This document shows positions 44,200-63,042 of a DNA stretch of 64,000 bases, in pieces. Positions within the stretch are counted from its first letter, which is position 1; the number at the start of each line of letters is the position of its first letter. The position numbers and the translations under genes are program-made. The stretch is taken from NCBI RefSeq assembly GCF_024204685.1, contig NZ_CP100350.1:248001-312000 (forward strand), given 5' to 3'. Origin of the DNA: Gilvimarinus sp. DA14. GTDB taxonomy: Bacteria; Pseudomonadota; Gammaproteobacteria; Pseudomonadales; Cellvibrionaceae. The notes beneath the pieces were generated by a model. That model saw only the letters and a program-made list of their open reading frames with translations, ran no database searches and was not told the DNA's origin.

Positions 44200-44391
44200 A
44201 TGTTGATCTTAACCCGCCGTATTGGCGAAACCCTGATGGTTGGTGATGAAGTTACAGTTACCGTGCTGGGTGTAAAGGGCAATCAAGTGCGTATCGGCGT
44301 TAACGCGCCCAAAGACATTGCTGTACACCGCGAAGAAATCTACCAGCGCATTCAGCGTGAAAAGCAAAATCAGCAAGAAGGCTTGGTATAA
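44200..44391 (+). CDS. csrA: Carbon storage regulator CsrA/RsmA
   Basis: A 63-residue dimeric RNA-binding protein starting [18 protein letters not shown] with the conserved [19 protein letters not shown] segment that forms the RNA-binding surface. It binds GGA motifs presented in hairpin loops and represses or stabilises many mRNAs that govern carbon flux, biofilm and motility. GAAGGAG precedes the ATG. It is followed by its own terminator and by tRNA-Ser, the same order as csrA-serV in E. coli. Confidence 0.98.
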
Positions 44392-44579: not shown

Positions 44580-44669
44580 GGAGAAGTGGCCGAGTGGCCG
44601 AAGGCGCTCCCCTGCTAAGGGAGTATACCTTGATCGGTATCGAGGGTTCGAATCCCTCCTTCTCCGCCA
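44580..44669 (+). tRNA. tRNA-Ser (anticodon GCU), CCA encoded
   Basis: A 90-nt type II tRNA with a long variable arm. The acceptor stem pairs GGAGAAG (44580-44586) with CTTCTCC (44659-44665), then G73 and CCA. The anticodon loop reads CTGCTAA, giving GCU for AGC/AGU serine codons. The T arm has GGTTCGAATC. It lies downstream of csrA as in enterobacteria. Confidence 0.97.
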
Positions 44670-44672
44670 TAC

Positions 44673-44704
44673 AAAAAGCCCAACCGAAAGGTTGGGCTTT
44701 TTTT
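44673..44704 (+). terminator. Terminator of tRNA-Ser
   Basis: A 13-bp stem (AAAAAGCCCAACC with GGTTGGGCTTTTT) and a GAAA tetraloop followed by T residues start 3 bp after the tRNA CCA end. Confidence 0.95.
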
Positions 44705-44737
44705 ATGCGGGAAGGCGGGTGAGAAGCCTCGCCGGGT

Positions 44738-44810
44738 TCGACAAAACGCCGGGAGCGTTTTGCACCGAGCGTAGCGAGCCCGCAGGGTGGGCGCAGGACG
44801 CGTCCAGTAC
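44738..44810 (+). repeat. tRNA-linked structured repeat, unit 1
   Basis: About 73 bp, nearly identical to the unit at 44970-45040. It contains two hairpins: CAAAACGC/GCGTTTTG with loop CGGGA (44742-44762), and GGGCGC/GCGTCC with loop AGGAC (44789-44805, one G-T wobble). Both loops present GGA. No open frame in it looks genuine. It follows the tRNA-Ser terminator and precedes a copy of the tRNA 3' end. Confidence 0.85.
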
Positions 44811-44830
44811 ATCCCTCCTTCTCCGCCATA
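44811..44830 (+). repeat. Duplicate of the tRNA-Ser 3' end
   Basis: Twenty bases are identical to 44652-44671, the T-arm/acceptor 3' half of tRNA-Ser with CCA and the next two bases, at a distance of 159 bp. No matching 5' half lies upstream, so this is not a second tRNA. It has the form of an attachment-site repeat or the relic of a tandem duplication. Confidence 0.88.
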
Positions 44831-44834
44831 TATT

Positions 44835-44873
44835 AAAACCGCCGAAGGTCATTTAACCTCCGGCGGTTTTTTT
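44835..44873 (+). terminator. Terminator after the tRNA 3'-end copy
   Basis: AAAACCGCCG pairs with CGGCGGTTTT, with AGGT/ACCT extending inside, followed by T residues. Its position relative to the tRNA 3'-end copy mirrors that of the true tRNA terminator. Confidence 0.88.
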
Positions 44874-44969
44874 AGACACAAAAGGTTAACAGGAGGCGTT
44901 CGACCGCTCATCTGCCTCCCTGCAGTCGCGGCATTTGTGCATCCATGCACATCAAACCCGACTGAGGCT

Positions 44970-45040
44970 CGACAAAACGCAGGGAGCGTTTTGCACCGAG
45001 CGCAGCGAGCTCGCAGGGTGGGCGCAGGACGCGCCCAGTA
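44970..45040 (+). repeat. tRNA-linked structured repeat, unit 2
   Basis: Second copy of the ~73-bp unit. Hairpin one is CAAAACGC/GCGTTTTG with loop AGGGA (44973-44993). Hairpin two is GGGCGC/GCGCCC with loop AGGAC (45020-45036), fully paired where unit 1 has a wobble. It is followed by a degraded tRNA 3' end (AATCCCTCC, 45041-45049) and another terminator. Confidence 0.85.
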
Positions 45041-45066
45041 AATCCCTCCCGCAGCACATACCAAAT

Positions 45067-45175: not shown

Positions 45176-45238
45176 CCCCGTACCCCGTACCCCGTACCCC
45201 GTACCCCGTACCCCGTACCCCGTACTCCGTACCCCGTC
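45176..45238. repeat. Tandem array of a 7-bp unit (CCCCGTA)
   Basis: Nine consecutive 7-bp units: seven CCCCGTA, one CTCCGTA and one final CCCCGTC. It lies 91 bp before the GH5 start codon in a non-coding stretch. The copy number may vary between strains by slippage. Confidence 0.95.
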
Positions 45239-58488: not shown

Positions 58489-58733
58489 GTTTGCCCGGGT
58501 CGCCGGGTGGGCGAGTCACTTTTCTTTGTTTGGGCAAAGAAAACTAACGAAAAGAAAGCCCACCCCGGCGAATGGCCCTTCGGGTACCCTCACTACGGTC
58601 AATTTTTGAGGGCCGTATCGACGCGTCGTCCGTGGCGCGGGGATACTTGCGCAAACGTCCGTGTTTGCTTACCCACAAAAATAGACCTTCGTTCGGCTCA
58701 TTCGCAGGGGCCCGGGGTGTGCCATGCTGATAA
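58489..58733 (-). repeat. Islet repeat, copy A (inverted)
   Basis: About 240 bp that, read on the minus strand, match the repeat at 62774-63042. Shared blocks are TGCGAATGAGCCGAACGAAGG, TTTTTGTGGGTAAGC, GATACGGCCCTCAAAAAT, GTAGTGAGGG, GGGCCATTCG and CTTTTCGTTAG. The minus strand has hairpin GCAAAC/GTTTGC with loop ACGGAC (58651-58668). It defines the left end of the islet. The gap 58482-59350 holds this repeat, two hairpins and no gene I can support. Confidence 0.88.
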
Positions 58734-60704: not shown

Positions 60705-60935
60705 CGATTACATCTGAGCTGAACGGAGGCCTGTTTTAGTGGTTGAGCGCTCTGGACGAGCGCGAAAGGATTGAGCGCACAGGGACGTGCGATTTAAACC
60801 GACCGCTAAAGTAGGCCGGAGAGAGGGCACCCCGCAGGGGCCAGATGTTGGGCAGGGTTTTTGGTTACTTTTTGCCGCAAAAAGTAACTCGCAACGCCCG
60901 GCGATGCGGGCATATAAAAAGCCGTTAATTTATAA
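60705..60935 (+). repeat. Islet repeat, copy C (diverged)
   Basis: The right end matches copy B closely: AAAAGTAACTCGC, then GCCCGGCGATGCGGGCATAT and AAAAAGCCGTTAATTTAT (60880-60934 against 62988-63042). The left part keeps GAACG-AGGCCTGTTTT and AGGGGCCA. It has two loop-conserved hairpins: GCGCTC/GAGCGC with loop TGGAC (60747-60763) and CGCAC/GTGCG with loop AGGGAC (60776-60791). The 408-bp gap it occupies has no gene. Confidence 0.82.
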
Positions 60936-62773: not shown

Positions 62774-63042
62774 TGATCAGAGTGGCACACCTGGGGCCCC
62801 TGCGAATGAGCCGAACGAAGGCCTGTTTTTGTGGGTAAGCACGCAGGACGCGTGCGCAAGTATCGCCGGGACAGGGAGGTCTTGTCGATACGGCCCTCAA
62901 AAATAGGCCGTAGTGAGGGGGACCCGTCAGGGCCATTCGTCGGGGTGGGCTTCTCTTTTCGTTAGGTTTCTGTTGGCCAAACAACAGAAAAGTAACTCGC
63001 TACGCCCGGCGATGCGGGCATATAAAAAGCCGTTAATTTATT
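62774..63042 (+). repeat. Islet repeat, copy B
   Basis: About 270 bp, the inverse of copy A, defining the right end of the islet. It contains hairpin GCACGC/GCGTGC with loop AGGAC (62839-62855), an outer pair GTATC/GATAC around 62859-62890, and CGGCC/GGCCG. An open frame inside its complement resembles one in copy A at the peptide level (HYG-FLRAVSTR), but this follows from DNA identity. The 387-bp gap it fills has no supported gene. Confidence 0.88.

Follow-up and report, generated by a model that had tools for sequence, protein, structure and literature searches.

Tandem repeats behind a tRNA-Ser gene of Gilvimarinus as candidate CsrA-binding tRNA-linked repeats

The tRNA-Ser locus and its two repeats

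The DNA considered here is a 64,000-nucleotide stretch of the chromosome of Gilvimarinus sp. DA14, referred to below as the window, and the features described lie on its forward strand unless the minus strand is named. At 44200..44391 is csrA (PF02599, 86.9 bits over 44200-44355, the stop codon being taken from the sequence), just upstream of a pair of repeats as an earlier sequence-only reading of this DNA had placed it. It is one of two csrA-like genes in the genome, the other being represented by a PF02599 match at genome position 1263815 in a genome search. A tRNA-Ser(GCT) gene at 44580..44669 (ARAGORN; Rfam 60.3 bits) is the host gene of the repeat array. Two terminator-like hairpins, T1 between the tRNA and the first repeat (44673..44704) and T2 on the 3′ side of that repeat (44835..44871), were recognised from the sequence and are absent from the list given by a consensus terminator scan.

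The repeat unit is about 85 nt long and both copies have two small hairpins between an outer pair, HP1 and HP4. Copy 1 (44735..44828; 80.2 bits over 44735-44819 with R1, a covariance model described below) opens with a T-arm-like GGTTCGA and runs through HP1, the two small hairpins and HP4 to a tRNA 3′ end. Its HP1 (44742..44762) has the arms CAAAACGC (44742-44749) and GCGTTTTG (44755-44762) around the loop CGGGA (44750-44754), and in its HP4 (44789..44805), the source of the motif CAGGACG, GGGCGC (44789-44794) faces GCGTCC (44800-44805) across the loop AGGAC (44795-44799). The last 18 nt (44811..44828) are by sequence identity an exact duplicate of the tRNA-Ser 3′ end, CCA included, and in the predicted fold a closing stem, P1, brings its 5′ strand at 44708..44721 to a partner at 44810-44825. 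Copy 2 (44966..45050; R1 76.8 bits) has HP1 at 44973..44993 (arms 44973-44980 and 44986-44993, loop AGGGA 44981-44985), HP4 at 45020..45036 (arms 45020-45025 and 45031-45036, loop AGGAC 45026-45030) and a tRNA 3′ end cut to 9 nt, AATCCCTCC (45041-45049). Since the minimum-energy fold of copy 1 taken alone is without HP1, which is present in that of copy 2, what is said of HP1 rests on comparison. Further downstream, GTACCCC-like units form a short tandem repeat at 45180-45235.

Are these then tRNA-linked repeats (TLRs)? Two marks of a TLR are a place directly 3′ of a tRNA or rRNA gene on the same strand, which the pair has (the tRNA ends at 44669 and the R1 match begins at 44735), and an identity of 18–19 nt to the 3′ end of the upstream gene, which copy 1 shows with its 18 nt and copy 2, with 9 nt, does not. 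TLRs are further expected to be transcribed by read-through from the upstream gene and then processed, and copy 1 has a terminator-like hairpin on either side. The Rfam model of the related RtT RNA, RF00391, gave copy 1 30.9 bits (E 0.00073, over 44699-44828), below its gathering threshold of 45.

Stem covariation and loop content among the relatives

As a BLAST query the unit found matches in 16 of 61 genomes of the family, its own included. There the units follow genes for tRNA-Ser, Arg, Pro, Phe and Asp, and often form tandem arrays in which the tRNA end is repeated. R1 was built from 19 units, its seeds being mostly GGA copies, and it gave 20 matches at E ≤0.01 in the Gilvimarinus genome and matches in 128 of 274 genomes of the class. 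Such a model and genome scan was the check proposed in the sequence-only reading for its view that the GGA loops are kept while the stems vary with pairing maintained, and the view is borne out. Over 130 class matches (128 distinct), in an alignment that is fitted to the model and so leans towards it, covariation was 0.507 against 0.127 for shuffled alignments, a value reached by none of 500 shuffles; 22 of the 24 pairs had changed on both sides, and controls in which the partners were slid gave 0.03-0.09. In two of the match sets one copy, from genome G630, is present twice.

A second, loop-blind model, R2, had both loops written as N. At E 0.001 it gave matches in 165 of the 369 genomes of the class that were scanned, and 40 places from among the stronger matches listed were followed up. 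The set on which the loops were judged consists of 51 loci used in neither model, with 66 matches in 36 genomes, two of which (G215 and G111) also gave seeds elsewhere. Covariation in it was 0.608 against 0.163 for shuffled alignments. R2 was itself built from 34 of 84 masked sequences, all from R1 matches, and with the proviso that some GGA bias may thereby remain, GGA stands in the loop of HP1 in 47 of the 66 and of HP4 in 46, where shuffling the letters within each loop leads one to expect about 12.5 and 17.0; the control hairpins HP2 and HP3 have it in 0 and 7 (expected about 4.5 and 4.3). Neither loop has GGA in 16 of the 66 copies.

Dispersed repeats with some arrays of near-identical units are also what would be met if these were ordinary REP-like DNA hairpins whose loops hold GGA by chance and have been kept alike by recent copying, and REP-type hairpins with random loops had been named beforehand as what would tell against selection on the loops. 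However, the 66 copies contain 35 distinct versions of the HP1 5′ arm, both-sided changes occur at 8 of the 9 HP1 pairs, and GGA distinguishes the HP1 loop from the control loops of the same units. With loops that are not random and stems that covary, the REP-like account is very improbable. Chance as the source of the GGA loops was ruled out by the loop-blind model and the control hairpins.

The two loops also go together. Taking the best copy per locus within the class, both have GGA in 36, neither in 10 and one only in 5, for which Fisher's test gives p 1.3e-6, a guide only since related genomes are not independent. Among 29 matches outside the class GGA is in HP1 of 17 and in HP4 of 25 (17 both, 8 HP4 only, 4 neither), a weaker coupling, and in a set of 19 mostly from outside the class it is not significant (p 0.47). 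In a genome of another class (G480; L378 and L396) the two loops have changed jointly at two loci, both reading AGTA in place of AGGA. For the 15 best copies in the Gilvimarinus genome the figures are 14 with GGA in HP1 and 12 in HP4. There is also a TLR subtype without GGA (L032, L037, L040, L050, L126, L199, L209), often with a short first loop, and with a longer last hairpin whose loop is, for example, CCTA or CTTA.

Other loop counts differ in their rules. A separate one took the best 51 of 68 and the best 119 of 130 matches, counted GGA up to one base into the stem, and excluded hairpins that could not be placed (165 and 152 of 170). A pattern scan found GGA in loop 4 of 33 of 36; it listed 80 of 119 stretches, the 20 records that were scored include a MAG, and only loop 4 counts there because the pattern demanded GGA in loop 1.

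Searched with the element, a phage collection gave no match, and a phage origin was rejected on that ground; a plasmid collection yielded a single record, from Serratia marcescens (6 places, at best 75% over 30% of the query). E. coli genomes returned nothing when searched with the RtT consensus of Rfam.

Known CsrA-binding RNAs and the islet repeats

In E. coli TLRs were already known in 1978, and no function could be given to them until those linked to 5S proved to bind CsrA; they are named and described by Stenum et al. 2021 (PMC8144298). According to that report E. coli RrB, flanked by two terminators behind 5S, brings CsrA down with it in pull-downs and is shifted at 50–200 nM, a mutant with three GGAs changed shows no CsrA shift, and CsrA is the protein most strongly enriched with rrB. 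Deletion and overexpression of rrA/B/F had modest, similar effects, and the other 19 E. coli TLRs, in tRNA operons, have a CsrA score below 0.01 (PMC8144298). We find that the rrB locus scores 47.3 bits with R1 and 36.9 with R2, its HP1 loop being CGGGA and its HP4 loop AGGAC. RrA, RrB and RrF have the two loops of copy 1 and match both models, and they share with it the order of hairpins, the copy of the upstream gene's 3′ end and the place between two terminators. The host gene is 5S rRNA there, whereas it is tRNA-Ser here, and PMC8144298 reports conservation only within the Enterobacteriales, to be set against the 128 of 274 class genomes above and the presence of tmRNA- and 5S-linked copies in the Gilvimarinus genome. 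The E. coli rrnB T1-T2 region, common on plasmids, holds both GGA hairpins (L405), and a warning about the rrnB terminator region on plasmids was given by the same authors (PMC8144298).

E. coli rttR, of the RtT family (RF00391), has the closing stem, the T-arm-like start and the duplicated tRNA end in common with the window pair, and differs in that its two matching loops have GCA where those of the window have GGA; the argVYZQ spacers gave one weak partial match of 14.3 bits. As 19 TLRs score below 0.01 and the rttR loops read GCA, the CsrA type seems to survive in E. coli behind 5S alone, whereas other members of the class commonly have it behind tRNAs. RtT-family transcripts have been reported in Thioalkalivibrio and Actinobacillus.

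How well do the sites themselves suit CsrA? RUACARGGAUGU is the consensus reported from SELEX, and a single dimer spans two sites that lie 10–63 nt from each other (PMC7652899). The GGAs of each window copy are 41 nt apart, and in 43 relatives the gap is 34–58 nt with a median of 46. CsrA-sequestering RNAs are expected to have GGA in at least two hairpin loops, and each window copy has two. The stems, of 6–9 pairs, are longer than those of most SELEX ligands (PMC7652899). The likeness that had been noticed between CAGGACG and the CsrB loop consensus is general, 40 of 46 GGA-bearing HP4 sites having the CsrB-like reading CA(N)GGA(N)G. With CsrB/CsrC and RsmX/Y/Z the units share this context and GGA hairpins of a kind that holds CsrA, but those RNAs have many sites and a unit has two. 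A regulatory RNA cut from a tRNA transcript is known in 3′ETS-leuZ (PMC8144298), which pairs with sRNAs and not with CsrA. Searched with the Rfam model, the Gilvimarinus genome gave no match to CsrB (RF00018) at E 1, and its one weak RsmZ match, holding a single GGA, was judged spurious. The sequence-only reading's idea of a dispersed set of CsrA-binding or CsrA-titrating elements gains support as a prediction, from the non-random loops, the covarying stems, the spacing of the GGAs and the likeness to E. coli rrB.

The nearness of csrA, on the other hand, is weaker evidence than had been thought, because a common csrA–tRNA-Ser gene order explains it. At least seven genomes from seven families (G071, G122, G150, G161, G287, G310, G316) have an element 0.3–0.7 kb 3′ of csrA and on its strand, and E. 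coli also has the order csrA–serV. Among the 274 class genomes the element occurs in 115 of 235 with csrA as against 13 of 39 without detected csrA, which is not significant (p 0.084). Nine of those 13 are assemblies of at most 90% completeness, while G073 is 100% complete and has one element match; GGA is kept in both loops in three assemblies without detected csrA (G183, G068, G247).

Elsewhere in the window are three islet repeats, for which a hairpin design common with the tRNA-linked pair had been proposed. That holds for the paired GGA loops, and not for kinship: the islet repeats are of a different RNA family, TwoAYGGAY (RF01731), with another overall fold and no duplicated tRNA end. 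One, at 58590..58694 on the minus strand, has 49.8 bits, above the gathering threshold of 43; another, at 62813..62916 on the forward strand, is TwoAYGGAY-like, with 39 bits, below that threshold; and a divergent one with two GGA hairpins (loops TGGAC and AGGGAC), recognised from the sequence at about 60720..60850 on the forward strand, has no Rfam match at E 1. Their hairpins are at 58651-58668 (loop ACGGAC, minus strand), 60747-60763, 60776-60791 and 62839-62855. "Seven" hairpins had been announced for the two kinds of repeat together, in a list that names eight, and all eight are present.

CsrA binding by TwoAYGGAY was predicted in 2014 (PMC4333381). At E 1 there are 23 matches in the Gilvimarinus genome, of which 12 exceed the threshold, and the family occurs in 18 of the 274 class genomes. 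Both GGA triplets are invariant in 16 cores, with stem covariation of 0.467 against 0.176. Those 16 are what remained of 20 cores, themselves taken from 20 of the 23 matches; of the four set aside, two were not duplicates. Pfam searches with nine proteins of the islet region found no transposase. At 77096-77833 of the genome a TLR stands between two TwoAYGGAY copies within 740 nt (L101). A similar insert of about 40–50 nt (ACAAGGTGAAT...GAGAGGG...) lies inside a GGA hairpin of both families, in HP4 of a TLR (L030) and in the second hairpin of two TwoAYGGAY copies (L025, L027), as though GGA hairpin loops were a target for some insertion.

Linkage to tRNA, tmRNA and 5S genes, and possible function

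Among 264 matches pooled from three alignments, 155 distinct ones lie within 700 nt of a tRNA gene on their own strand, and in 94 of these 12 nt or more of the tRNA 3′ end are present. The upstream strand of the 94 fits the element's own tRNA, with 22.8 against 18.0 (sd 0.39) when tRNAs are permuted, a value not reached in 2000 permutations. The attachment is not confined to tRNA: in the Gilvimarinus genome one copy is behind tmRNA, with an 18-nt duplicate, and two are about 190 nt behind 5S rRNA genes, one of them with 7 nt of the 5S end and the other with no clear duplicate. Outside the class two copies are behind tmRNA.

The T-arm is a usual integration point, and duplicated gene ends and tandem arrays would be natural for small, mobile or selfish non-autonomous DNA that enters tRNA, tmRNA and 5S genes at their 3′ ends and restores the end, much as integrases use them, its hairpins being recognised by a mobility enzyme and CsrA being irrelevant. 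Genome G436, with 19 matches of equal or near-equal score and two examined stretches (L379, L389) without tRNA, suggests recent spread and fits this too. Mobility of this kind does not, however, predict loops that are fixed as GGA and change together, a CsrB-like context, or an upstream strand fitted to each tRNA, and as the whole explanation we think it unlikely, if worth keeping in mind. Mobility may explain how the units spread, and can hold beside a role in CsrA binding.

Outside these loops, copies with and without GGA are built alike, which suits another possibility, in which the elements act only in the processing or stability of the upstream tRNA transcript, as a decoy 3′ end or an RNase landing site, with the GGA loops serving another protein; recognition of the repeat by RNase E has been suggested (PMC8144298). 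It leaves the paired GGA loops unexplained and sits badly with CsrA heading the proteins enriched with rrB (PMC8144298), and it strikes us as a good deal less likely still than mobility alone.

What we favour, and regard as probable from sequence features and comparison, is that the window pair are TLRs of the CsrA-binding kind, acting as sponges tied to growth. Read-through of T1 behind tRNA-Ser would yield the repeat RNA, a point against which the terminator-like nature of T1, ahead of copy 1, has to be counted. In the closing stem, seen in the sequence and by comparison, the upstream strand pairs with the copy of the tRNA 3′ end, and that copy probably recruits the enzymes that process tRNA tails, so releasing a small RNA. 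Its two GGA loops, at their spacing of 41 nt, could both be held by one CsrA dimer, to judge from E. coli rrB. With units behind genes for tRNA, tmRNA and 5S rRNA, a greater output of the translation machinery would bring more of their RNA, lower free CsrA and tie CsrA control to growth. The TwoAYGGAY islet repeats, of a different family with paired loops of like kind, could add binding sites.

The kind of element has a precedent in E. coli; its spread, the linkage to tmRNA and the coupled loops appear to be new. A search of the open-access literature found no report of GGA hairpins in tRNA-linked TLRs outside the Enterobacteriales, and TLRs are not mentioned in the accessible parts of an account of CsrA-related sRNAs in Alcanivorax (PMC9788540) or of a Csr binding model across species (PMC12889724).

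The results suggest that paired CsrA-type hairpins are common in the TLRs of the class and that E. coli, whose tRNA-linked ones are predicted not to bind (PMC8144298), is not typical. They also suggest that making the translation machinery may at the same time make RNAs that soak up CsrA, which would let a growth-coupled level of Csr control be tested directly, with the covariance model supplying candidates in any genome. More tentatively, and with somewhat less than even confidence, one may imagine that in a large part of the Gammaproteobacteria, and in genomes of at least one further class, tRNA, tmRNA and 5S genes carry a common tail module that releases bivalent CsrA decoys. Many small sponges, and not only CsrB-type RNAs, would then set CsrA activity by the output of stable RNA, and the paired loops would co-evolve with the binding protein, including in the genome where they read AGTA.
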